From: Hippopus hippopus
Lineage: Eukaryota > Mollusca > Bivalvia > Cardiida > Cardiidae
DNA length: 64,000 nucleotides
Direction of reading: 5' to 3'
NCBI GenBank assembly: GCA_946811185.2
Contig: OX328099.1
Coordinates: 39,729,299 to 39,793,298, forward strand
A model generated the notes under the pieces. It saw nothing but the letters and a program-made list of their open reading frames with translations, was not told the DNA's origin and ran no database searches. The position numbers and the translations under genes are program-made. Of the stretch, positions 7,099-28,542 are shown in pieces (the stretch's first letter is position 1; every line of letters starts with the position of its first letter).

Positions 7099-7100
<2 letters not shown>

Positions 7101-10070: not shown

Positions 10071-10179
10071 CTACAATGAAAAATATATCGGCGAAAATGT
10101 ATCCAGTTTTTGCAATGAAGTCGAGAGGAACTTGAGCTGAGAAAGTTTACAGTTTAATCACGTGTATGTGTTTAATACG

Positions 10180-11132: not shown

Positions 11133-11139
11133 TTGGAGG

Positions 11140-11950: not shown

Positions 11951-11953
11951 AAT

Positions 11954-13571: not shown

Positions 13572-14092
13572 AGTAGTAAATGGTAGTCACTTGGGGCACA
13601 AATAGGCCATGTGCCCCATGTGACTACCCTTTAATGCCCCATTCTGCTACCCTGACAGTAAATGGGGCGCCGGGGTAGCAGAATGGGGCAAACCGGAAGT
13701 CGATTTTTGTAAAACCGGAAGTGAATTTTAGTAAATGGAGTTATCTCCCCTGATTTTATCCGGAAAGGGGGGGAATGGGCGTGGCTTAGGAAAGTCACGT
13801 GACGTTACCATGACGACACGTGACGTCACTTCCGGTTGACGTGGACTTCCGGTACCTATTCTCCTTACCCTGAGAGGGGAAAGATGGGTGCGGCTTAGGA
13901 AAGTCATGTGACGTCATGGTTACAGGGCAAAGACCATTTCCGGTTGATCTTAGACTGCACATGTTGCAGAGATTGGACAGTCCTATCTGACTTACCCTGA
14001 GTGCCCTATTCTGCTTACCCTGAGTGGGGTTGTACTGACTGAAAGTCTTGAAAATTGACAATTTGAAAGATCACTCTTTCGTGTGGAATGGT

Positions 14093-14108
14093 AGCCCTGA
14101 AAAGGGCT
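14093..14108 (-). terminator. Histone-type 3' stem-loop of left gene A
   Basis: On the minus strand it reads AGCCCT-TTTC-AGGGCT then ACCATTCCACACGAAAGAG. It starts 20 nt after the stop codon. Confidence 0.85.
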
Positions 14109-14113
14109 GTTTG

Positions 14114-14144
14114 TGGAGGTTGTGTTTTTTAGGCACAACCTCCA
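14114..14144 (-). promoter_or_regulatory. Second hairpin spanning the gene A stop codon (left)
   Basis: An 11-bp perfect stem TGGAGGTTGTG / CACAACCTCCA places the stop codon in its loop, just upstream of the histone-type stem-loop. The right copy has the same stem at 27964-27994. Confidence 0.6.
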
Positions 14145-14557
14145 ACTTTTCTGCAGGCTGGACAGCTGCTTGCTGTCCGCCTCTTAAGCCTCCTCAATTC
14201 CGTCTCGTCCAGGTTAAAGTGCAGAGAGAATGGTGGTTCGTCATCGTCATCCCAGCATTCCGTCACTGGAATGACGACCTTCTTCTCGTTGACTGGTGGC
14301 AGTGGTGTCGGCTTCAGGCCTACCCCACCATCAAGAAAGAGCAATATTTCTTCAAAGAGTGGGCATCTATTTTCGTCTTTTTTCCACTCTGTTGGTGTGA
14401 TGACGAGCCCTACCTTGTAGTTTACTAGTGGGTGTAGTGGTGGTCTTTCTTCCTCTGCCATCAAGTGGTTGAGCTGGTTGTTAACCCTCTCTATTTTCAA
14501 TCAGAGGGTGGATACCGCTCTCATTAAATTGCGAACTGACTTCCGAAGATCTTCCAT
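14129..14557 (-). pseudogene. Arm gene A, left copy (premature stop)
   Basis: Same gene as 27668-27979. The ATG at 14557 matches the right copy, but codon 19 is TGA (14501-14503), after which the frame stays open to the shared end. It has about 40 extra residues mid-protein that the right copy lacks. Downstream, both share VIPVTECWDDD.EP.FSLHFNLDETELRRLKRRTASSCPACRKVGGCA-type sequence, given here only as motifs: an acidic WDDD stretch, a basic LRRLKRR segment and a C-terminal CPxCx4GC metal-binding-like motif. The function is unknown. Initiation after the stop is possible but unsupported. Confidence 0.7.
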
Positions 14558-14588
14558 CGTTCAATTGAATAGTGAAAAATTTCACTGG

Positions 14589-14745
14589 CTTTTATAAGCT
14601 GGTGGGAGGATTGACCTACTTTGGCTCAGAATTAACGGTGACCAATCAAAATGTGTAATGATATAAGGAACGAATCGATTGGACACCGTTAATTCTATGT
14701 CAAAGTAGGTCAATCCTCTCGTCAGAACTAGGATTGACCTACTTT
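14589..14745. promoter_or_regulatory. Arm promoter module (gene A left, bidirectional)
   Basis: TATAAAAG on the minus strand (14589-14596) faces gene A. AAAGTAGGTCA occurs at 14612-14622 (-), 14702-14712 (+) and 14735-14745 (-), with AP-1-like TGACTCA next to the last. CCAATCA and GTTAAT motifs lie between. Confidence 0.75.
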
Positions 14746-14779
14746 GACTCAGAATTAAGAGCGCGTTCCCGGGCGAAAG

Positions 14780-15180
14780 CACCCTCGATAAAGGGGTTTA
14801 AACGCTATATGTTATTAAGTGTAACTCTTTAGAGGTAGAAATGCCAAAATTTGAAAAGAATAATCTTTTAGAATTAACGTTTTTTTGACCAATCAGACGC
14901 TTCGTTGCTTTAATGTTGGCCAATCAGAAGCTTCGTTATATTTCTTTGTGTGCGTAAAAAAACTAGAAGGAGAAGATTCGTGTTATGTACATGAGTTTGG
15001 ACTTAGTCTTTTTTTTGATATGGAATACAGTGTGAATTTAATGTCCACACTGTCTCAGGACAAGAGGGTTGGGAATAGACTTTTTTTGTCTGGTTAGAGT
15101 AAAAAATTTGCAGTGGGACTGTGGACTTAGGCTTTTTTGAGTATAACTATTAGAGTATAACTCATTGACTGAAAGTCTTT
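14780..15180. repeat. Arm spacer repeat (degenerate cassette), copy 1
   Basis: Shared with 16160-16500 and 18370-18690: two (G)CCAATCAGA..(C)TTCGTT boxes, then 'tttgatatggaatacagtgtga' and 'ggcttttttgagtataac'. It encodes no convincing protein. It may be the remains of a deleted cassette or a plus-strand promoter without a gene. Confidence 0.55.
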
Positions 15181-15231
15181 TGACTGAAAATTGACAATTC
15201 GAAAAGAAAGATCTTTTCGTGGTGTTGGGTT

Positions 15232-15247
15232 AGCCCTGAAAAGGGCT
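15232..15247 (-). terminator. Histone-type 3' stem-loop of gene B
   Basis: AGCCCT-TTTC-AGGGCT on the minus strand, 30 nt after the stop, followed by AACCCAACACCACGAAAAGA. Confidence 0.85.
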
Positions 15248-15277
15248 GTTTTTCTGTGTTGGAATGTTTTCCAGCTT

Positions 15278-15892
15278 TTAATGACAGCTTTTCTTTGGTT
15301 TTTTCGGGATCTTGAAATCATCAAAGTCATCAATCTTTTTTCCGTATTTGCCCTGGCCCGTCATTGTCGAGATTGCCCAGTTGTTGAGAACTCCTTGCTT
15401 TTTGTGAAGTTCCCCATTGCTTTCCTCCGATTTTCTTTTTGTTGCTCTTCGCTGTTTTTCCTTTGGATGTTGTTTTTCTTTCTTTACAACCGTTACGATT
15501 GACTCTACTAGTTTATGAAGACTGGTTTTATCAAAGTCAAATTCCATCGGGATTTTCACCGGAATCTGCACAGGAACAGGTGAAACACGCTTACTCTGTT
15601 GACATAATGTCTCAATGTTTCTGCTCAGCTATTCAGTGTTTGTGTTTAAAGTCTTTATCTCCTCCAAATGCTTGTTGAAAGTCTTCAGTTCTTCTAAAAG
15701 CTGAGTCAATACAGAATCTTGTTTTGAATTCAGCTGTCTTACTTCTTCAAAAATGTCGTCCAATATGGTCTTTGGGTTGACTAGTGTTGAATTCATCGCT
15801 GTCGATGGGCTGATATCTCCAGTGTTTTCTTTTGGTAGGAATTCGTCTATATCGAAACCGTCCAAGTTGAATCCATTTCAGTTGAAATCCAT
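15278..15892 (-). pseudogene. Arm gene B, coiled-coil/basic protein with two in-frame stops
   Basis: One reading frame of 205 codons from ATG 15892 to the stop at 15278. It is interrupted by TGA at codon 5 (15878-15880) and TAG at 15629-15631. Upstream of the TAG is a Leu/Gln/Glu heptad region (IFEEVRQLNSKQDSVLTQLL), probably a coiled coil. Downstream is a Lys-rich segment (KKEKQHPKEKQRRATKRKSE) and a short KIPKKPKKSCH tail. Its 5' UTR and 3' UTR closely match those of gene G (27017-27316), yet the proteins differ. No family is recognised; a DNA-binding or virion-core-like basic protein is only a guess. Confidence 0.6.
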
Positions 15893-15959
15893 TCTTCCGT
15901 TAGTGTTTTATTCGAGAGCTGAGAGTCGAATAATTTATTATTTAGAAAAACATCGTCGG

Positions 15960-16116
15960 CTTTTATAAGCTGGTGGGAGGATTGACCTACTTTGGTTCAG
16001 AATTAACGTTGACCAATCAAAATGTGTAATGATATAACGAACGAATCGATTGGACAACGTTAATTCTATGTCAAAGTAGGTCAATCCTCTCGTCAGAACT
16101 AGGATTGACCTACTTC
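15960..16116. promoter_or_regulatory. Arm promoter module (gene B)
   Basis: TATAAAAG (-) lies at 15960-15967 and AAAGTAGGTCA at 15983-15993 (-) and 16073-16083 (+). A one-base variant is at 16106-16116. CCAATCA and AACGTTAATT are present. It is nearly the same sequence as the gene A module. Confidence 0.75.
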
Positions 16117-16159
16117 GATTCAGAATTAAGAGCGCGTTCCCGGGCGAAAGCACCCTCGA

Positions 16160-16500
16160 TGAAGAGGGTTAAACGCTATGTGTTATTAAGTGTAACTCAT
16201 AGAGGTAGAAATGCTAAAAATTTGAAAAGAATAATCTTTCAGAATAAACGTTTTTTGACCAATCAGAAGCTTCGTTGGTTTAATGTTGGCCAATCAGAAG
16301 CTTCGTTATATTTCTTTCTTTGTGTGAGTAAAAAACTAGAAGGAAAAGGTTCGTGTTATGCACAGAAATTTGGACTTAGTCTTTTTTTTGATATGGAATA
16401 CAGTGTGATTTTGAAAGAGAAAACTAGGTCTGTATTGGACTTAGACTTTTTTGAGTATAGCTCTTTGACTGAAAGTCTTTTGACTGAAAATTGACAATTC
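16160..16500. repeat. Arm spacer repeat, copy 2
   Basis: Same unit as 14780-15180, with paired CCAATCAGAAGCTTCGTT boxes and 'gatatggaatacagtgtga'. It ends in the 'gactgaaagtcttttgactg' block that lies beyond each stem-loop. Confidence 0.55.
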
Positions 16501-16528
16501 GAAAGATCACTCTTTCTTGCTGAATGGT

Positions 16529-16544
16529 AGCCCTGAAAAGGGCT
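16529..16544 (-). terminator. Histone-type 3' stem-loop of gene C
   Basis: AGCCCT-TTTC-AGGGCT on the minus strand, 26 nt after the stop. It is followed by ACCATTCAGCAAGAAAGAG, a near-canonical histone downstream element. Confidence 0.88.
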
Positions 16545-16570
16545 GTTTTGAGTCTTGTTGTCTGGCAAGG

Positions 16571-16777
16571 CTATTCATCGACTGTATAAACTACAGGTCT
16601 GATCTCTCGCCAGCAATATTCGCACCAGACCCATGGGTCATCGTCTTCATCATAAAATCCCTCATCAGGATTTGGACAGTTGTGCTTTTGTCCAAGATAC
16701 TGTAGGGGAAATGTACATTTCCCACACTCTATGTCGCATGCTTGAGCACACAAAGGGCAAATAAGTATCTGAACCAT
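16571..16777 (-). CDS. Arm gene C, 68-aa zinc-ribbon-like protein
   Basis: The start was set at MVQIL (16777). The upstream in-frame ATGs lie at or before the expected transcription start of the TATA box at 16815-16822, and the paralogue C' (18798-19004) is then also exactly 68 aa. Cysteine pattern: CPLC, C.IECGKC, KHNCP.PDEGFYD, WCEYC. These are four CxxC-like pairs that probably bind zinc. The acidic DEDDD stretch varies between the paralogues. The family is not recognised. It could be a small nucleic-acid- or protein-binding zinc ribbon. Confidence 0.75.
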   Translation of the reverse strand: MVQILICPLCAQACDIECGKCTFPLQYLGQKHNCPNPDEGFYDEDDDPWVWCEYCWREIRPVVYTVDE

Positions 16778-16814
16778 AGTGGAACGAATATGATTTGATG
16801 TATAAAACATTGAC

Positions 16815-16849
16815 TTTTTATAGTTTTGCTGGATGGATTGACCTACTTT
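16815..16849 (-). promoter_or_regulatory. Arm promoter module (gene C)
   Basis: TATAAAAA (-) lies at 16815-16822 with AAAGTAGGTCA (-) at 16839-16849. 'tgactcagaattaacg' and CCAATCA lie upstream. The start codon follows the TATA box by 38 nt, so the 5' UTR is very short. Confidence 0.7.
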
Positions 16850-17093
16850 TGACTCAGAATTAACGTTGTCCAATCAAAAAGCTCGTTATATCTTTAGTTT
16901 TATTGGAGAGATGGCTTTTTCTTACTCAAAACTTACTGTTGGACTTAGTCTGAGGAACGATTTTGTTCTTTAGGGAAAGATTTAGCTAGAGAGTTGATGC
17001 AAAGGACCTCTTTTTTGACTGTAACTGATTGATTGTAATTCTTAGAGGAAATTGACAAATTTGAAGAAAGATCACTCTTTCTTGGTGTTGAGT

Positions 17094-17109
17094 AGCCCTG
17101 AAAAGGGCT
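17094..17109 (-). terminator. Histone-type 3' stem-loop of gene D
   Basis: AGCCCT-TTTC-AGGGCT on the minus strand, 40 nt after the stop, then ACTCAACACCAAGAAAGAG. Confidence 0.85.
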
Positions 17110-17149
17110 GTTTTTTAAAGAAATCAACTCAAAATATTCAGAGTTGGAC

Positions 17150-17437
17150 CTATTCGTCGAAAAACTCCCGGTCAAGTTCATCCATCTGTTCACGCTTACA
17201 GCGGGTATAGTCTCTGTACATATCGAGTGTTTCTTCAATAACCCATAATTTTATCCCAAAGTAACAGCAGTACAATCTGTTATTTGTACGTTCTGACATC
17301 TTGTATGCTTTCTCTACCACATCTTGACGATGTTCTAGCAAGTCGATCTGTTTGTAGGCTTCCATAAATTCTCGTTTGGCAACATTCATTTTGCGTTGTA
17401 TCTTGCGTTCACTCGAAGTCAGTTTTCTTGTAAACAT
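17150..17437 (-). CDS. Arm gene D, 95-aa basic helical protein
   Basis: ATG at 17437, stop TAG at 17150. The protein is very rich in Lys/Arg/Glu and predicted to be all-helical: a basic N-terminus (MFTRKLTSSERKIQRKMN), a central KMSERTNNR motif and an acidic C-terminus (DELDREFFDE). Paralogue D' at 17898-18191 keeps KM.ERTNNR, IE.TL.M and the acidic tail. No family is recognised. The charge pattern suits a nucleic-acid-binding or coiled-coil dimer protein, which is inference. Confidence 0.72.
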   Translation of the reverse strand: MFTRKLTSSERKIQRKMNVAKREFMEAYKQIDLLEHRQDVVEKAYKMSERTNNRLYCCYFGIKLWVIEETLDMYRDYTRCKREQMDELDREFFDE

Positions 17438-17490
17438 GATGATTCGAATTGGTTATCTAGTTGATAATAATTTTTTACAATTGAGTCCGG

Positions 17491-17649
17491 ACTTTACATA
17501 TTCTTGCATAGGGATTGACCTACTTTGACTTAGAATTAACGTTGGCGAATCAAAATGTGTAATGATATAACGAACGAATCGATTGGACAACGTTAATTCT
17601 ATGTCAAAGTAGGTCAATCCTCTCGTCAGAACTAGGATTGACCTACTTT
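17491..17649. promoter_or_regulatory. Arm promoter module (gene D)
   Basis: AAAGTAGGTCA occurs at 17516-17526 (-), 17606-17616 (+) and 17639-17649 (-). The TATA position has decayed to TATGTAAAG (about 17492-17500), while the D' module keeps TATATAAAG. Confidence 0.65.
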
Positions 17650-17855
17650 GACTCAGAATTAAGAGCGCGTTCCCGGGCGAAAGCACCCTCGATAAAGGGG
17701 TTAAACGCTATGTGTTATTAAGTGTAACTCATAGAGGTAGAAATGCCAAAAATAGGCTTTTTTGAGTATAACTCTTAGAGTATAACTCATTGGCTGAATG
17801 TCTTTTGACTGAAAATTGACAATTCGAAAAGAAAGATCTTTTCGTGGAGTTGGGT

Positions 17856-17871
17856 AGCCCTGAAAAGGGCT
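17856..17871 (-). terminator. Histone-type 3' stem-loop of gene D'
   Basis: AGCCCT-TTTC-AGGGCT on the minus strand, 26 nt after the stop, followed by ACCCA (the canonical histone flank) and CACGAAAAGA. Confidence 0.87.
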
Positions 17872-17897
17872 GTTTTGAAGAAAATCAAGTTGAATAA

Positions 17898-18191
17898 TTA
17901 TTCAGAATCAGACGAATCGTTGAACAGCTCTCGGTGAAGTTCGATAATCTGGTCAGCTTTGGAAAAGGCATATTCATAAAACATTTCAAGTGTCCCTTCA
18001 ATAACTGTAAGCTTCATTCGAAGGTTATAGCGGAACGCTCTGTTGTTTGTACGTTCTGCCATCTTGTACTGTTTCTTCACCTGGTCTAAACGTTGCTTCA
18101 GCAAGACGATCTGATTAAAGGCTTTTCTAAATCGTCGTTTAGCATCATTTAAAGTGAAACGTTTGTCAAGAGTTCTTATTCTTGAAGGCAT
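17898..18191 (-). CDS. Arm gene D', paralogue of gene D, 97 aa
   Basis: ATG at 18191. It has a basic helical N-terminus (MPSRIRTLDKRFTLNDAKRR), AERTNNRAFRYNL, then VIEGTLEMFYEY and an acidic FNDSSDSE end. It aligns with gene D along its whole length at moderate identity, so both copies have probably been kept under selection rather than being a fresh duplication. The function is unknown. Confidence 0.75.
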   Translation of the reverse strand: MPSRIRTLDKRFTLNDAKRRFRKAFNQIVLLKQRLDQVKKQYKMAERTNNRAFRYNLRMKLTVIEGTLEMFYEYAFSKADQIIELHRELFNDSSDSE

Positions 18192-18243
18192 GTTGATGAT
18201 TTGGTTATCTACTTGATAATAATTTTTTACAATTGAGTGCGGA

Positions 18244-18368
18244 CTTTATATATTCTTGCATAGGGATTGACCTACTTTGACTTAGAATTAACGTTAACCA
18301 ATCAAAATGTATAATGATATAACGAACGATTCAACTGGGTAACGTTAATTCTATACCAAAGTAGGTCA
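18244..18368. promoter_or_regulatory. Arm promoter module (gene D')
   Basis: TATATAAAG (-) is at 18244-18252 and AAAGTAGGTCA at 18268-18278 (-) and 18358-18368 (+). Two GTTA-type motifs and CCAATCA lie between. Confidence 0.75.
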
Positions 18369-18369
18369 A

Positions 18370-18690
18370 TCCTCCCATCAGAACTAGTTTTGATTCACAA
18401 TTAACGTTTTTTGACCAATCAGAAGGTTCGTTGCTTTAACGTTGCCCAATCAGAACGTTCGTTACATTTTTTTTTTATCCAAAAAAACAATTGATAAATC
18501 TGAAATGATAGAAGAGAGGATTTACGCTTTTGAATTTTTTGGTATGGAATACAGTGTGATTTTTTTGATACCCACACTGTCTCTGCTCAAAAAGGGTTGG
18601 GAATCGACTTTTTTGTCTGGTTAGAGCAAACATTGCAGTGGCTGTGGCCTTAGGCTTTTTTGGAGTATAACTCTTAGAGTGTAACTCTTT
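18370..18690. repeat. Arm spacer repeat, copy 3
   Basis: Third copy of the 14780-15180 unit, with paired CCAATCAGAA.GTTCGTT boxes and 'ggtatggaatacagtgtga'. Confidence 0.5.
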
Positions 18691-18755
18691 GACTGAAAGT
18701 CTTTTGACTGAAAATTGACAAATTTGAAAAGAAAGATCTTTTCGTGGTGTTGGTT

Positions 18756-18771
18756 AGCCCTGAAAAGGGCT
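18756..18771 (-). terminator. Histone-type 3' stem-loop of gene C'
   Basis: AGCCCT-TTTC-AGGGCT on the minus strand, 26 nt after the stop, then AACCAACACCACGAAAAGA. Confidence 0.85.
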
Positions 18772-18797
18772 GTTTTTCGAGTATTCATCTATCAAGA

Positions 18798-19004
18798 CTA
18801 CTGCTCTTCTAAACGATTTACTGGGATGATTTCACATCCACAGTATTCACAGCATACTGCCGAGCTTTCATCATAGTCATAGAATCCCTCATCAGGATCA
18901 GGACAGTTATGCTTCTGACCAAGGTAGTCCAGAATAGTAAGGCATTTTCCGCATTCTATATAGCATCTGCTACCACACATCGGACAGAGAAGTATCTGTA
19001 CCAT
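18798..19004 (-). CDS. Arm gene C', paralogue of gene C, 68 aa
   Basis: Start MVQIL at 19004. CPMC, C.IECGKC, YLGQKHNCPDPDEGFYD and CCEYCGC are present, so every cysteine of gene C is kept plus extra ones. The 3' distance to the stem-loop is identical to gene C (26 nt). It is divergently paired with gene E across a shared promoter at 19042-19210. Confidence 0.77.
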   Translation of the reverse strand: MVQILLCPMCGSRCYIECGKCLTILDYLGQKHNCPDPDEGFYDYDESSAVCCEYCGCEIIPVNRLEEQ

Positions 19005-19041
19005 GATGGAACGATAATGATTTGATGTATAAAACATTGGA

Positions 19042-19210
19042 ATTTTATAGCTTGCAGGGTGGATTGACCTACTTCGACATAGAATTAACGTCGCCTAATC
19101 GAATCGTTCGTTATATCATTACACATTTTGATTGGATAACTTTAATTCTGAGATTGGTCAACGTTAATTCTGAGTCAAAGTAGGTCAATCCTCCCGTCAA
19201 CGTATAAAAA
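19042..19210. promoter_or_regulatory. Divergent arm promoter (C' left, E right)
   Basis: A TATA box TATAAAAT (-) at 19042-19049 faces C' and TATAAAAA (+) at 19203-19210 faces E. AP-1 TGAGTCA overlaps AAAGTAGGTCA at 19171-19187 (+). A one-base-off copy is at 19065-19075 (-). The layout is nearly symmetrical around a CCAAT-like centre. Confidence 0.78.
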
Positions 19211-19249
19211 CGAACTTTTTTTTATGATCGGATTATTTTTCATTTCACA

Positions 19250-19456
19250 ATGAAAGACAATAAAAATTTTAGCAAGTGTTTTGGAAGGAGAAAGGGCAAA
19301 ATGATGAAGAGAGAGATGGAGGAGAAGCTAGATCGGGAGAAAAGAGAAAAAGAAGCAAGAAGAGAAGAGGCAGCGAAGTTGAAAACTCTCTGCGAGTTTT
19401 TAAAGAGGCAAGGGCTTGAGTTTTCGCCCGACTTCATGTCACTGGTATGGAATTAA
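19250..19456 (+). CDS. Arm gene E, 68-aa highly charged protein
   Basis: ATG at 19250, 40 nt after TATAAAAA. A Lys/Arg/Glu-rich helix covers most of the protein (KMMKREMEEKLDREKREKEA), ending in LKRQGLEFSPDFMSLVWN. It is the only left-arm gene transcribed toward the core. A diverged homologue E' lies at 25767-26213. Charge and predicted helix are all that can be said; no family is recognised. Confidence 0.7.
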   Translation: MKDNKNFSKCFGRRKGKMMKREMEEKLDREKREKEARREEAAKLKTLCEFLKRQGLEFSPDFMSLVWN

Positions 19457-19485
19457 TTTTAACCATCCAGTGAATGGAGAAAAAC

Positions 19486-19501
19486 AGCCCTTTTCAGGGC
19501 T
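19486..19501 (+). terminator. Histone-type 3' stem-loop of gene E
   Basis: AAAAACAGCCCTTTTCAGGG begins the signal, followed by CTACCATTCCCCAAGAAAGA: stem-loop, ACCA flank and the exact 9-mer CAAGAAAGA of the histone downstream element. It starts 29 nt after the stop and is the clearest copy in the window. Confidence 0.92.
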
Positions 19502-19620
19502 ACCATTCCCCAAGAAAGAGCTTTTCTTTCGAATTGTCAATTTTTTCTCTCAAAAGGTTTACAGTCAAAAGACTTACAGTCAGAAGAAAAAAGTCAAGCC
19601 CAGAATTATTTCATATGTTT

Positions 19621-19626
19621 TTTATT
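19621..19626 (-). terminator. AATAAA poly(A) signal for gene H
   Basis: TTTATT on the plus strand, in a block inverted at 25740-25760. It serves the minus-strand core gene H, about 180 nt after its stop. No histone-type stem-loop is present on this side. Confidence 0.65.
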
Positions 19627-19804
19627 CAAACAATTTTGTACAATGAAACAAGACATGAACTGTGAAAAAACAATGGAATGAAAAAACAGTATCTGTTAAA
19701 AACATTGAAAATGAAAAAACAATATCTGTGCAAAAAACAATTTAGCATAAAAACATTTCGTACAATATAACATTTCATACAATATAACATTTTACAATGC
19801 AAAT

Positions 19805-20458
19805 TCACAATGCAAATTCACAAATGCCCAGAGTTTTCCATTTGTCTTCATGTTCCATAATAACTGCATGCAATTGCTCATTACCCAAATACAATTGATA
19901 TTCACTTTCCATCTCTCTGAATTCACGTATTCCTCTAAATGGAAAAACATGTTTTGTAACGCCTTTTGTTGAAAGGGATGAATATACACTTTCTTCTGTA
20001 ACATCTCTATCAAATAAAATATAGCCTTCCAAGGTATCCACTATTTCCTCATCGTTTTGAATAAATCCTCTTTTGTAGCGTAAGTAAAAGTTAAATAAAA
20101 CTGATTTCATTTTCAGAACGTTCAGAAAGCTTTCTTCTGTTCTTCCTATGATAATAAAGCACCAGCGACTTGTGGATCGGATTTGTTTACCGATAGCACC
20201 GTCTTTCCACCAACAAGATGCTAAATAAGCTTTGAGAACGAGATCTAAATCCGAATCGTCTACCATCATAGCAATAAAGTTGTGTATAGCATACAACTTG
20301 CAGGACGAATCTCCTTTTACAAAACCTTTGTGCAATTTATCTATCCAAAGTTTCACACAGCCGAATTTAATGTAAAGTTGCGTTTGTTCATCGAGCGTAT
20401 GCTGTTGAACGAATTCTCCATAAATCTTTTCACGTAGTTCTATTGGTAAAGGCAGCAT
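19805..20458 (-). CDS. Core gene H, 217-aa protein of unknown function
   Basis: An intact ORF with ATG at 20458. It begins LPLPIELREKIYGEF, which resembles the first helix of an F-box, but the rest of an F-box is not convincing. Trp/Cys-rich and mixed helical segments follow (YLASCWWKDGAIGKQ, GRTEESFLNVLKMK). It starts 66 nt after the polymerase stop on the same strand, so it may be co-transcribed or use a promoter inside the polymerase gene. It is the only minus-strand core gene with no lesion. Confidence 0.65.
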   Translation of the reverse strand: MLPLPIELREKIYGEFVQQHTLDEQTQLYIKFGCVKLWIDKLHKGFVKGDSSCKLYAIHNFIAMMVDDSDLDLVLKAYLASCWWKDGAIGKQIRSTSRWCFIIIGRTEESFLNVLKMKSVLFNFYLRYKRGFIQNDEEIVDTLEGYILFDRDVTEESVYSSLSTKGVTKHVFPFRGIREFREMESEYQLYLGNEQLHAVIMEHEDKWKTLGICEFAL

Positions 20459-20524
20459 AATTTTTCAGTGATATTATTTTGCGTCTTACTCGGACCGTTC
20501 AGTTCAAAACAATGTAACATGGAA

Positions 20525-23500
20525 TTATCTTCTCAACGTTTTATAGCCATAGGGTACAGTGTCAGTATCATTTACAATAACTCTCTTGGTGTATACAGAA
20601 CGAAACGTTTTTGTTTGCGGTTCACTGGTGACCGTTCTATCTCTATGTCTTTTGATTTTACAATCATATTCAATTTTGATTTCTGTAGTGCGATTCAAAG
20701 CACATTTTGAATATGTATCGAAATTCACCACCTGACTTGTACTGTAATGCAAAGTAATCCCCTTCACTTTACATTTGCTTTTCACTTTTCCATCTTTTGT
20801 TTTCATTTTGTAAGCATAATTCTTTGGTCCTAGTCCTCTGAAATGAGTGATTTTACAATCAGGCTCCTCATCAGTCCATTTTCCTAGTCTGATGTTAATA
20901 ATGGGTGGGTTCCATAATTCAGGATCATGAATGTACATGCAACTATCTGTATCGAAATACAGAACTCTATCCTTTAACTTTTCAAGAACGCTGTACAATT
21001 CCAGCCTTGCATAAGCTGTTACGTAGGCTCCTACAATAACATTGGCTGTAGCGTGAGTATCAATATGTTCCAACTTTGTTTCGTAGTTGACCAAGATGAA
21101 TGGACAGTCATCGTCAAAGATTTCTACATGCTTCACAATGAAATTTGGATTGGTGACCAATTCAAAATATTTAGACGGATCGTTGATGTATTCCGTCTAG
21201 GTCATTTTTTCACGCTGGGCTAATTTTCCCCAAAGACAGTTCAACATAATCTTAGCAAAGGATCTTCTCCCAGGATTTTTTTGAATACAACTTGGATCAA
21301 GACGAATACCTTCTGCCTCCTCATATTCACGAATAAACTGTTCTTTTTCTGAATCTGATTGACACCAACTGGGATATCCGCTAGCTTCTTGCTTAATTTT
21401 CAAGAAATTATCCACATAGCCTTTAAAGAACTGATTCGACACAGAATCGAATTGCCAAATTTCATACACATACAATAACCGATAACCACAGTCAAGAGCC
21501 TTAAACAGTTCAAAAGTAACCCAAGTTCCTACCAAAGCCCTCTCTTCTTTGTTATGTCTACAAATGTTTGAATTTTCTTCTGCACATTTCATACAGAGTG
21601 GAAACATCATTTTGTTGTTACAGTGAACTGGGAGAACGGGGTGAAACAAATCATCTGGGGGTAAAACTTTGCATTTAATTATTCCTTCATACTGACGAAT
21701 ATTCTTCACGTCAATATTCTCAGTAGTCAAGATTTTTGGTTGACCTACAGGATAAGATTTGTGTTTGCAAACATAAGGGTACAGAGAACAAATATCAATG
21801 TATTTGATTTCCTTTTTACTTTTTTCCTTGACATCATAGGCAATTTTTATTGCATTACATCTTCCTCCAGACAATCCCTCTCTTGGATCGATGGGATCCC
21901 GATTTGGATACAGGTTTTCAATGAGTTTTTTGTACTCTTTATCCTTCTTCATCTTAGCATCGAATTCATGTTCCCATACGTTATACCCCATTTTTTGGAT
22001 AGCTCCTAAACGTTCAAAAGTACGTTCATACAATTCAGACATCGATCTTCCATTGATGGGATTGATCTGTTTTCGATCTGTATAACATACGGGACAGCCA
22101 TGAACAAATCCCCAAGGAATTGGTAGACAGTGTTTGATTGACGGTGAAATCCGTCTACACTGTATCTTCCGATTTGAACTTCACCACCATTGTTTGCGTG
22201 GCGAATATTGATTCCTTTTTCCATAGCTACGCTCTGGATCCAGCGTATTGCTTTCATGGAAAAGCGACGTCTGGATGCATCTTTACTTGAAATGATAGCT
22301 ATTTGATTTTCAGGCAAATATTTGCTTCGCCAAACCTTGTTACACGCATCGGCAATGGTAATCGCCTCTAGAAATGGGCAAATGCCACCCTGTTCAATAA
22401 ACACTTTTCTGAATTCACCACATCCTCGTCTTAGGATATCAACATCTGACCTACAGTACATTTCCATCCCTTTTTGAAAATTGAATTCCTCATCCCTTTG
22501 AACTTTATCATTATACCAGACTATGAAATTTGACCTGGCGTCTTCAGACATTGAATCGGGTTTGTAATAAGACATATCCAAGTAGGGACCAATGTACAGA
22601 ATTCATCTGTATTTGCCCAGTGAGGAAAGTAACCTTTTTTCATTTCTTGAAGACCAAATGTAGCTGGAAATTTTGCCAAACCGAAGTTCATGAAATTAAA
22701 AGAATCGATCAAACGCACTCCATTCAGTTCTAACTTCATAATGTTATTGCCATTCATGATCAAATTTGGAAGTTTTAGTCCAATTTTGATAACATAGTCA
22801 AGAATAAACTGTCCGTCATAGCCTTTGAAATTATGCGCAATAGCCGTGACTCCTTTATGATGTTCTGAAAAGAGCCAGTTGCAAAATTGACTCAAAGTTT
22901 CCTCACCTTGAAAAATAACTTCTCTTCCTTCTTCAAATTCACTGCATGTGGAACAATGAAAATCTAGTGGTTTATCGATACATTCATCACATGCTCTGTG
23001 TGCAATACAGTAATTCGGGATATGTACCCCTGTGTCTTGTTTGCATTCAAAATCAAAGTAAATGAACAATGGTTTTTTGACTACAGAAGAACTCGTCTTG
23101 TCATCGGTGTTTGTCTTACTTTGGTAAGGCTGAATATAACATTGATGAGAAAAGTCAACAATTTTCTTGCAGATATGACACTTTTTCTATCCATGGCAGA
23201 TATGATTTTTCTTTCTGAGTTGATATTGTTGACCACATTTTAAACAGAGTTTTACTAATTCACAAATGGATTTCTTTTCTTTACCTTGAACATTTCTATG
23301 ATTTGCCAAACATGCAGCACTGAAAAATCGTCTATGACACCCACTGCAAACATATTCTTCTGATTCTGATGGACATTTTCCTTTGCGATAACAACCTTTA
23401 CAGATATTTGAACATGTATGACTTTCCCGTCCCGAGTATCCCACATCACAGAACTCACAATAATATCCACAACTAAGAAAACCTGCAATGGATTTGATGT

Positions 23501-24570
23501 AATCATAGTGGTTTTGATGAAAGTACAAATGTATGATTTTACTATCGTCTTTCACTTCTGGATGTTCAAATACTTTTTCCACTTTTGAATGCTGTTGATG
23601 AACTTTAATGACATAGTCCTTTTCATACAAGAAAGATTGGATTTTTTTGTATTCGTCAATTCCTGCAGATTGGGTTGACGAAACTCCAGCTTCATTCAAC
23701 AGTTTCTCAGCTTCAGTCTTTTGAAGTATTCTGTCTGATTTTCTGATGCATAACCATCTTCTATACCATGCTTTGGTGTTTTCACGTTCACTGTAGCAAA
23801 TGTCCACCACAACTGCTCTTGCAAATCATAGGTGATCATGATTGTTAATTTGAATAATAGATTTTTTCTTCCGGGCAAAAACCTTTGAATCCAGTTCTGA
23901 TGATCTTTTTCTCCCGTTACCGCTTGGAGGTATTGTATGTGAAATGTCAAATGTCATGAATCCATCGTTCAAGACGAAATCTGTATTCGCCTTTCAGCTG
24001 TTCTGTAGGTAGAAAGGGAATATGAATCCCTATTTTCAATGAAGGGTGGTTGATACTAATTCCAATCATATCCGTCGGTTCAGCATTTAACTTTTGAATG
24101 ATTTGATGGGTAACTTCATCAAATAATCCGATCAGTTGATTGGGTGGTAATTCTTCAAATTTCTTAAAAGACGCCATCAACAGATGTGATTCTGTTCTAA
24201 ATTTCCTCGATTTCTTTTTTCCCTTCTCCGTTAAGTCATACAGACTTTTCATGTCTAAAGTAGTGTTGTTACTTTCTTCTTTTGGGTCCTCAATCAATTT
24301 TTTCGAGGAAATATCATCTTCACTTTCACTTTTCATGATCGTTTTTTTCTTAGGTGTTTCATCTTCACTTTCACTTTTCACGTTCATTTTTTTCGAGGAG
24401 ATTTTATCTTCACTGTCACTTTCTACGATCATTTTTACAGGTTTTTTCTTGGGTGAAGAGAAATCGTCTTCACTGTCACTTCCTTCTTTTTTCATTTTTT
24501 TTGGTGGTGAAAATGACTCATCGTCACTTTCGCTGTCTGAATAGGGTACTATTCTTTTTCTTTTACCCAT
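20525..24570 (-). pseudogene. Protein-primed family B DNA polymerase (pPolB), degraded
   Basis: About 1,350 codons from ATG 24570. Order: an acidic/basic low-complexity N-terminus (SDSE repeats); a Cys/His zinc cluster (about 23190-23480); exonuclease motifs FDFEC (about 23050), HNFKGYDGQF (about 22820) and YCRSDVD (about 22450); F.HGCPVCY (about 22090); motif A DICSLYP (about 21785); motif B NCLWGK (about 21235); motif C YFDTDS (about 20950). This is the DNA_pol_B_2 family of Polintons and adenoviruses, which replicates linear DNA from a protein primer. Lesions: frameshifts near 23952, 22592 and 22108; in-frame TGA 23826-23828, TAG 23187-23189 and TAG 21197-21199. All catalytic motifs remain legible, so decay is fairly recent. 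Confidence 0.92.
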
Positions 24571-24620
24571 CGTTTATGTCTGAATGTAAGACAATGACAC
24601 GGTAAGTCAGAAAACTCGGC

Positions 24621-24657
24621 ATTTTATAGAGCCTTTCAGCTCGATAGTGTATAAATA
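24621..24657. promoter_or_regulatory. Divergent core promoter (pPolB left, CCHC gene right)
   Basis: TATAAAAT (-) at 24621-24628 and TATAAATA (+) at 24650-24657 lie only 21 bp apart and face opposite ways. Neither AAAGTAGGTCA nor the arm CCAAT boxes occur here, so core and arm genes use different promoter types. Confidence 0.75.
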
Positions 24658-24725
24658 GAGACGATAGCTACGAAATCTATATCATTCTTCTGATCAACTT
24701 CAGACAGTACAGTTGATAAAAAATA

Positions 24726-25583
24726 ATGAGCGAGTTTAAGCTACAAAATACATCGCTGATCGGAAAGATGATGTATCTGTACGTTAACCCATACACCCAC
24801 GATTACGAGATCAGCAATGTTCCGTCAAAGTATCAACTTCAACATATCGGGAACTATGTGGGATCATTTTTATCCCATCAACATGTAACAGAAAAAGACG
24901 TTTACCGTATTATCAGTTACAGAGTTTTGAATCAAGCAGCGATCAAAAAACGATATGAACCGGATGGAAAGAGAAAAGATATTTGTTTTACATGCAACAA
25001 ACCAGGACACTGGGCTAGAAATTGTCCAGAAAAAGAAAAGCAGACAGAAACAGTCGTTTTTGTCTATGTGAACCCACGCAGTCACGATATCAAAATTTCA
25101 CCAACAATGGGATTTTGTGGTGAATTTCAGAACATGAAATTCGTTGGTGTTCTGAAATCATTCTGCAACGAAAATAAATGGAAAACAAGCTCACTACAGA
25201 CTACAAGATCATCGGATGATAATCAGATCGAAAATATGCAGATTGACAACACGACTATCAGCGATACAGAGATCTGTAAAATAACAGAACAGATAGAGAA
25301 AAAAATATCTACAAACGATAATCTAAGAAAACAACCAACTTTGGAACTAAAAAACAACGAACTTTCTTCAGAGGAGACTCTTTCAACCAAAGAGGAGAAA
25401 AAGCAGAACAATGAAAAAAGAGAAAGCGAGAAAAAAAAGAAGTGTTTCTTTTGCAAATCAAAAAAACATGGGGATAAAATCTGGACCTGTCCAGATATGG
25501 TATTAAAAAATAATGAAAGGGGAAGAAAACGAAAGAGTGAATGTGAATCTGACTTTCCAAAGAAAAAAAGAAAAACACACTGA
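24726..25583 (+). CDS. Core zinc-knuckle protein, 285 aa
   Basis: An intact ORF with ATG at 24726. A canonical CCHC knuckle occupies C87, C90, H95 and C100 (CFTCNKPGHWARNC). A longer variant lies at C240, C243, H248 and C255 (CX2CX4HX6C). The N-terminal phrase YLYVNPYTHDYEIS (17-30) is repeated as FVYVNPRSHDIKIS (112-125), so the protein looks like two copies of a [YVNP..HD..IS + knuckle] module. The second copy carries a Ser/Lys/Glu-rich insert and a bipartite basic tail (GRKRK...PKKKRKTH), a probable nuclear signal. It is likely a single-strand nucleic-acid-binding partner for replication, by inference. It is transcribed divergently from pPolB. Confidence 0.8.
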   Translation: MSEFKLQNTSLIGKMMYLYVNPYTHDYEISNVPSKYQLQHIGNYVGSFLSHQHVTEKDVYRIISYRVLNQAAIKKRYEPDGKRKDICFTCNKPGHWARNCPEKEKQTETVVFVYVNPRSHDIKISPTMGFCGEFQNMKFVGVLKSFCNENKWKTSSLQTTRSSDDNQIENMQIDNTTISDTEICKITEQIEKKISTNDNLRKQPTLELKNNELSSEETLSTKEEKKQNNEKRESEKKKKCFFCKSKKHGDKIWTCPDMVLKNNERGRKRKSECESDFPKKKRKTH

Positions 25584-25745
25584 AAAAAGTTTCAACAAAA
25601 AAGTTCTTGTTGAAAAAACTGTTGCAAAATATTGTTTTAAGTTTTTTAAAAAATGTTTTAACAAAAAAAGGTTGACTTGTTTAAATGTTTTCATTCCAAT
25701 GTTTTTTCACAGTTGATGTCTTGTTTCATTGTACAAAATTGTTTG

Positions 25746-25751
25746 AATAAA
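25746..25751 (+). terminator. AATAAA poly(A) signal for the CCHC gene
   Basis: AATAAA lies 163 nt after the stop, inside the inverted block shared with 19500-19680. No stem-loop occurs on the plus strand here. Confidence 0.7.
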
Positions 25752-25766
25752 AACATATGAAATAAT

Positions 25767-26213
25767 TCAGGGCTTGACTTTTTTTTTCTTCTGACTGTAA
25801 ACTTTTGACTGTAAGCCTTTTGAGAGAAAAAATTGACAATTCAAAAGAAAAGCTCTTTCTTGGGGAATGGTAGCACTGAAAAGGGCTGTTTTTCTCCATT
25901 CACTGGCTGGATAAATTAATTCCATACCAGTGAAGGATACAGCTTCTGTAGCTTCTTTTGCCACCCACGATGCTCGGTAGGTGGCATGAAGTCCTTTAGA
26001 TCGGGGTAAATATTCCCCATCTTGATCTTCGGCGTACGAGTATAAAACTCGTACCCTCGCCTCTCGAAAAAAGCACACAGTGCTTTGATCTTCATCCTCT
26101 TTCTTTCTTCTTCTTTTCTTCTCCATCTCTATGTGCTCCTCCATCTCTTTCTTTTTCTTTTCCTCAGTCTTTGGCTTTCCAAATACCCCACAGAAAAAGC
26201 TGCTGCCTTCCAT
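25767..26213 (-). pseudogene. Arm gene E', diverged homologue of gene E running through its 3' signal
   Basis: The frame opens at ATG 26213, which overlaps the TATA box, so the true start is more likely the ATG at 26144. It shares the charged KKKKEMEEH..EKKRRRKKE helix with gene E, then an unrelated middle, then FTGMELI at the point where E ends. Compared with E the frame is shifted, so the ORF reads through the damaged stem-loop (25872-25887) to 25767, and its last about 50 codons are former non-coding DNA. The copy is probably non-functional, or encodes a protein with an altered C-terminus. Confidence 0.55.
25872..25887 (-). terminator. Damaged histone-type stem-loop of gene E'
   Basis: The plus strand reads AGCACTGAAAAGGGCT: one C-to-A change at 25875 breaks a central stem pair. 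The CAAGAAAGA-like downstream block is still present. It is the only damaged stem-loop of eleven, and it belongs to the gene with a wrecked reading frame. Confidence 0.75.
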
Positions 26214-26416
26214 TTTTTATACGTTTGCAGGGGGATTGACCTACTTTGACTCAGGATTAACGTTTGTCCAATCGAATCGTTCGTTATATCATTACACATT
26301 TTGATTGGACAACGTTAACCCAACTGCATTTTCCTCTATGCAAAACACTATTCTCAGTGATCATAGTTAAAATACTTTTGTAGTCACTATTTTTATAGCT
26401 CTGTAGACTATAAAAG
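26213..26416. promoter_or_regulatory. Divergent arm promoter (E' left, F right)
   Basis: TATAAAAA (-) at 26213-26220, AAAGTAGGTCA (-) at 26237-26247 with an overlapping AP-1 TGACTCA (26247-26253), two CCAAT motifs, and TATAAAAG (+) at 26409-26416 for gene F. Confidence 0.7.
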
Positions 26417-26478
26417 ACAATCGCAAAACACATTCATTCGGAACTCAACTGCTGTAGAGTTAAAACCAAATCAGCACA

Positions 26479-26619
26479 ATGTTTGGACTAACAATTTTAC
26501 TTACATTGCTGTACTGGATAGAAGAAAGAGAACGCCTTAGACGTATAAGGCGTGAAGTTGAGCATCTATTCCAAGTAATAAATGCGATGGAAAATAGGAG
26601 AATAAAGAGAAGAGGTTAA
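26479..26619 (+). CDS. Arm gene F, 46-aa membrane-anchored basic peptide
   Basis: ATG at 26479, stop TAA at 26619. The N-terminus MFGLTILLTLLYWI is a short hydrophobic segment, followed by a basic helix (ERERLRRIRREVEHLF) and an IKRRG end. The TATA box is 63 nt upstream and the histone-type stem-loop begins 23 nt downstream, which is what supports so short an ORF. A small type I- or III-like membrane protein is inferred. No homologue is recognised and the left arm has none. Confidence 0.68.
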   Translation: MFGLTILLTLLYWIEERERLRRIRREVEHLFQVINAMENRRIKRRG

Positions 26620-26641
26620 AAAAAAGTGAATCTGTACAAAC

Positions 26642-26657
26642 AGCCCTTTTAAGGGCT
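26642..26657 (+). terminator. Histone-type 3' stem-loop of gene F (UUUA loop)
   Basis: AGCCCT-TTTA-AGGGCT then ACCCAACACCACGAAAAGA. This is the only copy with a UUUA loop; the stem is perfect and the ACCCA flank canonical. Confidence 0.87.
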
Positions 26658-26910
26658 ACCCAACACCACGAAAAGATCTATCTTTCCTCAAATTTTGTCA
26701 ATTTTCAGTCAAAAGACTTTCAGTCAAAGAGTTACACTCAAAAAAGCCTTCTAATTTTCACTTTTTGTCTAGGTCGAATGAATGCTTTTCTACTTCATTC
26801 AAAATAGATCTGTTCTAAAGAGATTTTTCCACATATGTATGCATTAAGCTTTTTTCTCAGAACTTTGCTCAGGATACTTTCTTCCAGGTTCGCGCTCTTA
26901 ATTCTAAGTC

Positions 26911-26943
26911 AAAGTAGGTCAATCCCCTGTAAACGTATAAAAG
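26911..26943 (+). promoter_or_regulatory. Arm promoter module (gene G)
   Basis: AAAGTAGGTCA at 26911-26921 and TATAAAAG at 26936-26943, only 14 bp apart. The 5' UTR that follows matches that of gene B. Confidence 0.75.
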
Positions 26944-27016
26944 TCGTCGATTTTCCAAATAATAAATCATTCGACACTCAGCTCTCGAATAGCACGGTTA
27001 AGTGTTAACGAAAAAA

Positions 27017-27316
27017 ATGGACCAAATGAATCATCGACTTATTGAGGCTCTCCGAGTCTTTCTGATTGGTGGTGATCAAGTACTGATACTAAAGAACAGG
27101 ATTGAAGAGAATAGAATACAACTAGAACAAATATCACGCACATACGTAGATCTTGGTGAGAAAATAGTCGAACTAGTACTAGAGACAACACCTGACATTA
27201 TCTTGGTTGATGTGGAACTCGGGAGACGGATTACTTTTAATAATGGAGCAATGACAATCACGAAAAGAGTCGGAGCATGTCCAATCTGCCATGCAAATTT
27301 TGGATGTTGTCATTAA
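27017..27316 (+). CDS. Arm gene G, 99-aa coiled-coil protein with C-terminal CPxC motif
   Basis: ATG at 27017 (an upstream in-frame GTG was rejected). The first two thirds are helical and heptad-like (ILKNRIEENRIQLEQISRTY), followed by a hydrophobic IVELVLETTPDIILVDVEL and a C-terminal CPICHANFGCCH. The tail matches the CPxCx4GC ending of gene A. Gene G sits between 5' and 3' UTRs almost the same as those of gene B but has a different coding region. The function is unknown. Confidence 0.72.
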   Translation: MDQMNHRLIEALRVFLIGGDQVLILKNRIEENRIQLEQISRTYVDLGEKIVELVLETTPDIILVDVELGRRITFNNGAMTITKRVGACPICHANFGCCH

Positions 27317-27346
27317 AAGATGGAAAACATTCCAACACAGAAAAAC

Positions 27347-27362
27347 AGCCCTTTTCAGGGCT
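27347..27362 (+). terminator. Histone-type 3' stem-loop of gene G
   Basis: AGCCCT-TTTC-AGGGCT, 30 nt after the stop, then AACCCAACACCACGAAAAGA, as in gene B. Confidence 0.87.
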
Positions 27363-27495
27363 AACCCAACACCACGAAAAGATCTTTCTTTTCGAATTGT
27401 CAATTTTCCCTCTAAAGAGTTACACTTAATAACATATAGCATTTAAACCCCCTCTTCATCGAGGGTGCTTTCGCCCGGGGACGCGCTCTTAATTC

Positions 27496-27637
27496 TGAGT
27501 CAAAGTAGGTCAATCCTAGTTCTGACGAGAGGAATAACGGTGTCCAATCGATTCGTTCGTTATATCATTACACATTTTGATTGGTCACCGTTAATTTTGA
27601 ACCAAAGTAGGTCAATCCTCCCACCAGCTTATAAAAG
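27496..27637 (+). promoter_or_regulatory. Arm promoter module (gene A right)
   Basis: AP-1 TGAGTCA overlaps AAAGTAGGTCA at 27496-27512. A CCAAT motif and a second AAAGTAGGTCA at 27604-27614 follow, then TATAAAAG at 27630-27637, 31 nt before the ATG. Confidence 0.78.
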
Positions 27638-27667
27638 CCGACGATTTTTTCACTATTCAATTGAACG

Positions 27668-27979
27668 ATGGAAGATCTTCAGAAGTCAGTTCAAAACTTA
27701 ATGAGAGCGGTATCCACCCTCTCATTGAAATTAGAGAGGATTAACAACCAGCTCAACCACTTGATGACAGAGGAAGAAAGGCTACCATCACCACCAATAT
27801 CGGCATCGGTAGCGAACGAAAAGAAGGAGTTTGTCATCCCAGTGACAGAATGCTGGGATGACGACAATGAGCCGGCGTTCTCTCTCCACTTTAACCTGGA
27901 CGAGACGGAATTGAGGAGGCTAAAGAGGCGGACAGCAAGCAGCTGTCCAGCCTGCAGAAAAGTTGGAGGTTGTGCCTAA
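27668..27979 (+). CDS. Arm gene A, right copy, 103 aa (intact)
   Basis: ATG at 27668. The N-terminal helix (VSTLSLKLERINNQLNHLM) looks like a coiled coil. Then come a Pro/Ser linker, an acidic ECWDDDNEP patch, FNLDETELRRLKRR, and a C-terminal CPACRKVGGC motif that may hold a metal in a dimer. The left copy (14129-14557) has a premature stop and an extra insert. The stop codon lies in the loop of an 11-bp hairpin (27964-27994). The role is unknown; position at both termini makes it the outermost gene of the element. Confidence 0.75.
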   Translation: MEDLQKSVQNLMRAVSTLSLKLERINNQLNHLMTEEERLPSPPISASVANEKKEFVIPVTECWDDDNEPAFSLHFNLDETELRRLKRRTASSCPACRKVGGCA

Positions 27980-27994
27980 AAAACACAACCTCCA
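27964..27994 (+). promoter_or_regulatory. Stop-codon hairpin of gene A (right)
   Basis: TGGAGGTTGTG pairs perfectly with CACAACCTCCA, and the TAA at 27977-27979 is in the 9-nt loop. The histone-type stem-loop starts 6 nt later. Confidence 0.6.
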
Positions 27995-27999
27995 CAAAC

Positions 28000-28015
28000 A
28001 GCCCTTTTCAGGGCT
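28000..28015 (+). terminator. Histone-type 3' stem-loop of right gene A
   Basis: AGCCCT-TTTC-AGGGCT, 20 nt after the stop, then ACCATTCCACACGAAAGAG. Confidence 0.87.
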
Positions 28016-28536
28016 ACCATTCCACACGAAAGAGTGATCTTTCAAATTGTCAATTTTCAAGACTTTCAGTCAGTACAACCCCACTCAGGGTAAGCAGAAT
28101 GGGGCACTCAGGGTAAGTCAGATAGGACTGTCCAATCTCTGCAACATGTGCAGTCTAAGATCAACCGGAAATGGTCTTTGCCCTGTAACCATGACGTCAC
28201 ATGACTTTCCTAAGCCACACCCATCTTTCCCCTCTCAGGGTAAGGAGAATAGGTACCGGAAGTCCACGTTAACCGGAAGTGACGTCACGTGTCGTTATGG
28301 TAACGTCACGTGACTTTTCTAAGCCACGCCCTTTTTCCCCCTTTCAGGATAAAATCAGGGGAGATAACTCCATTTACTAAAATTCACTTCAGGTTTTACA
28401 AAAATCGACTTCCGGTTTGCCCCATTCTGCTACCCCGGCGCCCCATTTACTGTCAGGGTAGCAGAATGGGGCACTAAAGGGTAGTCACAAGGGGCACATG
28501 GCCTATTTGTGCCCCAAGTGACTACCCTTTACTACT

Positions 28537-28542
28537 CACGGA
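28537..28542. repeat. Target-site duplication, right (CACGGA)
   Basis: Exact repeat of 13566-13571 directly after the terminal ...TACTACT. Confidence 0.95.

Follow-up and report, generated by a model that had tools for sequence, protein, structure and literature searches.

Hairpins of the histone type are general among animal histone genes, and to our knowledge the SLBP/U7 pathway is considered dedicated to replication-dependent histone mRNAs. This pathway is taken here as set out in parts of PMC7026596 and PMC5706932. For the bivalve Lucina pectinata, passages of PMC6210712 report that all the histone mRNAs found carried the stem-loop and that purine-rich elements were present only in some of them, so the purine block varies in the bivalve group. 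The DNA analysed here is a stretch of 64,000 nt from another bivalve, Hippopus hippopus (contig OX328099.1, positions 39,729,299 to 39,793,298; hereafter the window). It contains a Polinton-like mobile element with eleven small genes in its arms, and these arm genes are replication-dependent histone genes in build, with another protein inside. A histone-type 3' module stands at every arm gene and histone-type promoter motifs at most of them, and both sequence and spacing match those of the host histone genes.

An original prediction, made from the letters of the window, had claimed that each of the eleven arm genes has a hairpin 20-40 nt after its stop, and all eleven were located. The 16-mer AGCCCTTTTMAGGGCT occurs at 11 sites between 14093 and 28015, with no mismatch at ten and one mismatch at site 25872 (the list has a twelfth entry, which repeats site 26642 on the reverse strand), and dinucleotide shuffles gave 0.05 matches on average with a maximum of 1. 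Each hairpin lies on the coding strand, 20-40 nt past the stop of the arm frame. Ten of the eleven have a perfect 6-bp stem and a U-rich loop of 4 nt, just as predicted, with the one mismatched pair at 25872. The Histone3 covariance model of Rfam, whose use had been proposed together with the prediction, detects 11/11 hairpins at 15.7-31.9 bits (E-values of 7e-6 to 0.003 for ten of them, and E 8 for the mutated stem 25872), and finds nothing at E<=10 in window positions 1-13500 and 28600-64000. The flanks read AAAC[SL]A(A)CC, where SL is the stem-loop, and the purine block CAAGAAAGAG or CACGAAAAGA begins at about +12/+13 past the hairpin, which agrees with the flanks and purine block described before. 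Such inverted repeats could also be sites that act as DNA, in replication, recombination or protein binding, and in other copies of the element they are found in tandem at 24-nt spacing. However, the placement of all eleven on the coding strand just past the stops, together with the asymmetry of the TTTC/TTTA loop and of the flanks in common with the host histone genes, makes a role as DNA and not as RNA hardly credible.

The host has a tandem histone cluster at C15:40.57-41.47 Mb, in which open reading frames (ORFs) were recognised as H1, H2A, H2B, H3 and H4; the identity of H1 is backed by protein relatives, among which annelids and molluscs come first of the named animals. The host histone hairpins are GGCCCTTTTMAGGGCC and close variants, namely GGCCCTTTTAAGGGCC at H4, H2A and H3, GGCCCTTATCAGGGCC at H2B, GGCCCTTTTCAGGGCC at a solitary H2A-like gene and GGTCCTTTTCAGGACC at H1. 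Their 5' flank is AAC, or AAA in the case of H1, and their 3' flank is ACC, ACA or ATC. The arm hairpin is the host hairpin with the first pair A-U in place of G-C, and this pair had correctly been named as the sole departure. In 6/6 host histone genes the stem-loop lies 28-39 nt past the stop, and a looser purine pattern (GAAA, GAGAG or GAAT) begins at +11/12. Among 67 arm modules of a wider sample, which are related copies and not independent cases, GAAA begins at +12/13 in 57, with GGAA in its place in 9 of the remaining 10. An additional shared feature, absent from the earlier description, is the motif TTGTCAA (<=1 mismatch), which was found at +24 to +38 in 67/67 arm modules, against 12-13% at random points, and at +29 to +33 after the stem-loop in 6/6 host histone genes (L041, L043). 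When the hairpin is excluded, the 45 nt downstream of it, taken from the 11 window modules, still match the 6 host modules better than 500/500 shuffles do. A solitary histone-type stem-loop of 31.4 bits was also observed outside the histone cluster (L044:1068-1112, C8:42665067), and the ORF near it presumably resembles a transposase.

The likeness to the host histone genes extends to the promoters. A blastn comparison (E<=0.01) between the element and a single 10-kb piece of the host histone cluster gave 64 matches. On the host side, 37 of them fall in promoters, 25 at 3' ends and the remaining 2 elsewhere outside coding sequence. The 37 promoter matches are divided among H2A (25), H1 (5), H4 (4) and H2B (3). 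Within the element, arm promoters hold 34 of the 64 matches and arm 3' ends 22; the other 8 are unassigned, 6 of them matching host promoters. The gene orientation is concordant in 53/56 matches placed at an arm gene. Twenty shuffled elements gave 0-2 matches each. The central 6 kb of the element gave no blastn match to the histone piece, and the central region, with its PolB remnants and CCHC protein, is without histone-type signals. Shared repeats as the origin of the 64 matches were rejected, because three other pieces of the window (43.5 kb), used as control, gave 111 matches to the same histone piece and none of these is in promoters, 3' ends or coding sequence.

The promoter parts in common include GAGGGTGCTTTCGCCC..GG..CGCGCT, TTAATTCTG, CCAAT boxes and AAGTAGGTCAATCC. 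With <=2 mismatches, AAGTAGGTCAATCC begins 24-26 nt before TATA[AT]A in 9/11 arm genes, as it does in host H2A and H2B, and GGTGCTTTCGCCC is present upstream of 4/11 arm genes and likewise of host H1 and H4. With <=1 mismatch, AAGTAGGTCAATCC has no copy in the rest of the window, and a TATA-like box follows 24-26 nt past it in 40 of 68 copies counted over the window element and other arm stretches. The promoter motif was located for 46 of the 67 arm genes in the wider sample.

Polinton-like elements are related to virophages, and a hairpin could in such a lineage be a transcript end of the element's own or of virus type, which marks polyadenylation as in mimivirus and virophages and is independent of SLBP and U7. 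A second hairpin can indeed form downstream of the first one, between the purine block and the pyrimidines that follow, and 52/67 modules fold to <=-2.5 kcal/mol in +1..45 (a figure without shuffle control). The genes of Sputnik have a mimivirus-type hairpin polyadenylation signal, according to a part of PMC6723459. But a generic hairpin would not need to match the host histone hairpin, its flanks, its purine block and its promoters, so we consider a virus-type transcript end highly improbable.

In the window and the arm stretches of about eleven further copies there are 135 hairpins within two mismatches. Among them 72 are canonical with a TTTC loop, 26 are AGCTCT..AGAGCT and 26 are AGTCCT..AGGACT, and in the last two variants both partners are altered, at pair 4 and pair 3 respectively. 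The pairs were counted in 53 distinct 30-nt rows with histone-like flanks, 47 from arms and 6 from the host (host H2B was added manually), and a few hairpins with other flanks were left out. Standard pairs occupy 97.5% of the stem cells, a value as high in 0/500 shuffles; 19 stem cells are double-changed (also 0/500 shuffles), 6 of them being the host G-C first pair, 8 lying at pair 3 and 5 at pair 4. The second stem pair, G-C, is invariant across the 53 hairpins. Because a small number of independent events has been multiplied by copying, the shuffle figures cannot be read as probabilities. In the 1.07-Gb host genome as a whole, exact canonical hairpin 17-mers number 5,899, and the wider hairpin pattern AGYYCTTTTCAGRRCTA has 16,327 matches (control 0). 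In a tally by hand of pairs 3 and 4 among the first 100 of these matches listed, 90 were Watson-Crick, 9 had one U-G and 1 had C-A, which is the sole non-standard pair allowed by the pattern. In other copies the stem is maintained by compensatory change, through few independent events. In some copies, histone-type hairpins stand two or three in a row, 24 nt apart; they follow one arm gene (L046, L049-L055, L062, L063), and in several copies the pair is repeated at ~148 nt.

The ORFs before these hairpins belong to seven unrelated multi-member protein families, all seven of which are represented among the 11 window genes. In 11 of 13 hand-picked pairs of arm genes dN/dS was 0.07-0.54, and dS was saturated in the other 2; by their evolution the arm ORFs look like real genes. 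Ten arm proteins were scanned with Pfam and none had a match above the cut-off, histone included. A protein search with the Cys-rich arm protein of 18798-19037, which covered that arm protein only, gave no homologue, and the LxCxE motif, as in tumour-virus oncoproteins, is present in 0/11 window arm proteins. Two of the 11 arm frames (15278 and 25916) are broken upstream in the window copy, and at the latter a 148-aa frame, 25767-26213, overlaps the 59-aa frame and reads through the hairpin. At three genes, 16571-16810, 18798-19037 and 25916-26213, only 8-12 nt separate the TATA box from the first ATG; a later in-frame Met is therefore probably the real start.

The claim of the original prediction as a whole, a histone-type layout on hijacked host signals, is supported: the hairpin core, flanks, purine block and promoters match the host histone genes, the stem is compensated, and the host encodes SLBP, with exons at C11:6982951-6984266. 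We consider it very likely that the arm genes are expressed like the replication-dependent histone genes of the host. It is also likely that a lineage of DNA transposons or viruses captured the complete histone programme, promoter and SLBP/U7 3' end together, and placed seven unrelated non-histone families under it; tandem hairpins in some lineages may in addition draw SLBP to the mRNAs of the element. Judging from the gene anatomy, the histone transcription factors of the host would switch on the arm genes during S phase, SLBP would bind the arm hairpin, and the U7 small nuclear ribonucleoprotein together with CPSF73 would cleave between the hairpin and the purine block. The result would be short mRNAs without poly(A), lasting only during DNA replication. 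Such S-phase timing would suit a self-copying element that brings its own polymerase but depends on the host for nucleotides and replication factors.

Host histone genes are the probable source of the signal package (25 of the 37 promoter matches are to H2A), which would then have spread to unrelated ORFs inside the element. Capture fits better than convergence because long stretches and their spacing are in common. The reverse transfer, of histone flanks from the element, is unlikely because of the generality of such hairpins in animal histone genes.

Several observations weigh against expression of the arm genes in the manner of histone genes. Though the host has SLBP, its U7 was not found by RF00066, which gave three weak matches (best E 0.77), and the best of them folds no better than shuffles. 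All arm hairpins fall below Rfam's gathering score, which is 34 bits; likewise the stem-loops of H1, H2A, H2B and H3 in the host cluster are below it (30.0-33.5 bits), and those of host H4 (35.2 bits) and of the solitary H2A-like gene (37.9 bits) exceed it. Two of the five covariation measures are within the shuffle range, namely the number of pairs with double change, reached by 90/500 shuffles, and that of further pair types, reached by 479/500. For the promoters, AAGTAGGTCAATCC is absent at host H1, H3 and H4, 28/68 of its copies are without a TATA-like box within range, and 21/67 genes of the wider sample are without the promoter motif within 400 nt. Scans of viral contigs for relatives' DNA outside the host genome, with the hairpin, PolB, the Cys-rich arm protein and a PolB profile, yielded zero relatives. 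Candidates for U7 with CTTTC plus an Sm site were also sought, and 7 were read among the 100 places listed of 218 matches (control 132), none of them U7-like.

Further, the lack of poly(A) and the cell-cycle coupling of arm transcripts are features that we infer from the sequence, and AATAAA/ATTAAA is present 235-363 nt past the stop in 4/11 arm genes. Because of these signals, polyadenylation downstream of those four genes is possible, and arm transcripts in general might have the stem-loop and yet be mostly polyadenylated, in a dual mode of expression. However, 7/11 arm genes have no such signal within 400 nt of the stop and in none is it nearer than 235 nt, so we regard mostly polyadenylated transcripts as unlikely.

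Also against expression in the histone manner, 16/83 module starts of the wider sample are without an ORF of at least 40 aa within 90 nt, as is expected of decayed copies. Many copies are decayed in this way, and PolB is broken in the window, which would be consistent with captured histone flanks that are only carried along as a relic, inactive in SLBP/U7 processing. But the spacing is closely held, stem changes are compensated in other subfamilies, the second stem pair is constant, and ORFs of seven unrelated families, which evolve under purifying selection, are all followed by the same module. A relic is therefore very unlikely.

The element itself is virus-like mobile DNA with numerous copies in the host genome. 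Its terminal inverted repeats (TIRs) are 715 nt each with 96.2% identity, and the 6-bp duplication CACGGA is exact on both sides. Further copies in the same genome end in identical AGTAGTAAA termini, and where both flanks were seen, in five copies counting that of the window, the 6-bp target-site duplication is exact in four and holds 5 of 6 bp in one. A DNA polymerase of the PF03175 type (pPolB) is present in broken frame and has relatives in animals; the non-matching pieces within 20525..23186 are attributed to it by position only. The Polinton label of the original prediction thus holds in part: the PolB, the TIRs and the 6-bp duplication are there, but no integrase domain was found by Pfam in the central frames of the window copy (7 ORFs and 10 stop-to-stop pieces, of 32 pieces >=60 aa), and the same frames gave no Pfam match to capsid, ATPase or protease domains. 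Because these four domains were not found in the frames searched, we call the element Polinton-like and do not class it as a complete Polinton. The integrase may have been lost in the window copy or supplied in trans.

Table 1. Positions of the element, its histone-type signals and its genes in the window.
Feature	Position	Strand	Remark
Mobile element, ~15 kb	13572..28536	none	inverted arms; termini AGTAGTAAA...TTTACTACT, same on other copies
Target-site duplication CACGGA, left	13566..13571	none	flank of element left end
Target-site duplication CACGGA, right	28537..28542	none	flank of element right end
Left TIR	13572..14286	none	27 differences/715 nt vs right TIR
Right TIR	27822..28536	none	pairs with left TIR
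Histone-type stem-loop	14093..14108	-	29.9 bits; then GAAAG and AATTGTCAAT
Histone-type stem-loop	15232..15247	-	24.9 bits
Histone-type stem-loop	16529..16544	-	26.6 bits
Histone-type stem-loop	17094..17109	-	27.8 bits
Histone-type stem-loop	17856..17871	-	30.1 bits
Histone-type stem-loop	18756..18771	-	26.9 bits
Histone-type stem-loop	19486..19501	+	24.9 bits; then CCCCAAGAAAGAG
Histone-type stem-loop, one mismatched pair	25872..25887	-	15.7 bits
Histone-type stem-loop, TTTA loop, top Rfam score	26642..26657	+	31.9 bits
Histone-type stem-loop	27347..27362	+	24.9 bits
Histone-type stem-loop	28000..28015	+	29.9 bits
Histone-like promoter block upstream of arm gene 14129	14740..14795	-	copies at ~16110-16160 and 17645-17700
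Histone-like promoter of arm gene 19250 (GATTGG, TTAATTCTG, AAGTAGGTCAATCC, TATAAA)	19142..19214	+	78% over 64 columns vs host H2A promoter
Histone-like promoter region of arm gene 27668 (GGTGCTTTCGCCC, CGCGCTCTTAATTCT, AAGTAGGTCAATCC, TATAAA)	27460..27650	+	matches host H1, H4, H2B, H2A promoters
Arm gene, 110 aa, C-terminal CPACRKVGGCA	14129..14461	-	no Pfam above cut-off
Arm gene, 89-aa frame, 5' part interrupted in window copy	15278..15547	-	relative in another copy (L048) has 190 aa
Arm gene, 79 aa, Cys-rich	16571..16810	-	TATA box 12 nt before first ATG
Arm gene, 95 aa	17150..17437	-	reading frame
Arm gene, 97 aa	17898..18191	-	reading frame
Arm gene, 79 aa, Cys-rich (CxxC motifs)	18798..19037	-	zero homologues in protein search
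Arm gene, 68 aa	19250..19456	+	reading frame
Arm gene region, interrupted in window copy	25916..26213	-	59-aa frame 25916-26095 stops 28 nt before hairpin
Arm gene, 46 aa	26479..26619	+	reading frame
Arm gene, 99 aa, C-terminal CPICHANFGCCH	27017..27316	+	reading frame
Arm gene, 103 aa, C-terminus in common with 14129 gene	27668..27979	+	reading frame
DNA polymerase B remnant, several frames, broken in window copy	20525..23186	-	PF03175 in two pieces: 21200-22180, 22524-23186
Central gene, 285 aa, CCHC zinc knuckle	24726..25583	+	without histone-type 3' end

Outside the element, the window also carries a glycosyl hydrolase catalytic core ORF (PF11790, E 6.6e-37) at 9443-10057 and a fragment of a Tc1/mariner-type transposase (HTH_Tnp_Tc3_2) at 38192-38761. 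A 204-aa ORF at 12666-13280, just outside the element, is one which we take to resemble a dynein light chain of the Tctex1 type.

In the open-access literature searched, outside which subscription journals mostly lie, no paper treats Polintons together with histone stem-loops, with histone promoters or with SLBP, and the parts of it that were covered report no selfish element and no sizeable non-histone gene set on the histone pathway. Two candidate precedents were set aside. The Histone3 match of SARS-CoV-2, given as 14.7 bits in a part of PMC7786107, is located within the nsp3 coding sequence and is not a gene-end system. The 'Histoid' genes of adomavirus, in a passage of PMC11071296, resemble histone proteins, which is a likeness of protein and not of histone signals.

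A mobile element in which the two ends of histone genes have been copied would demonstrate that the SLBP/U7 pathway is able to serve other genes, and would explain how the element could time its expression to DNA replication. It would further provide thousands of natural copies (the 16,327 pattern matches) for learning what SLBP and U7 require, and a route to the regulators of histone genes in a little-studied animal group.

Compared with the replication-dependent histone genes of metazoans (SLBP/U7, RF00032), the arm genes share with those of the host the hairpin, the flanks, the purine block at about +12, TTGTCAA, and the promoter elements with their spacing. They differ from them in the first stem pair, which is A-U and not G-C, in proteins without a Pfam match among the ten scanned, in their location in a mobile element, and in the two or three hairpins in a row of some element copies. 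With Polinton/Maverick and adintovirus-type elements, the window element has in common the PF03175-type PolB, the long TIRs and the 6-bp target duplication, whereas the window copy is without Pfam-detected integrase, ATPase, protease and capsid, and has many small arm genes with histone-type signals. The nearest parallel in logic, by analogy, would be the virophages Sputnik and Mavirus, which according to passages of PMC6723459 bear the promoter signals of the giant virus they exploit, and Sputnik also its 3' hairpin signal, which lets the giant-virus machinery express their genes. Unlike in virophages, the borrowed signals of this element would be those of the host histone genes and not of a giant virus, and cleavage without poly(A) would apply to its transcripts.

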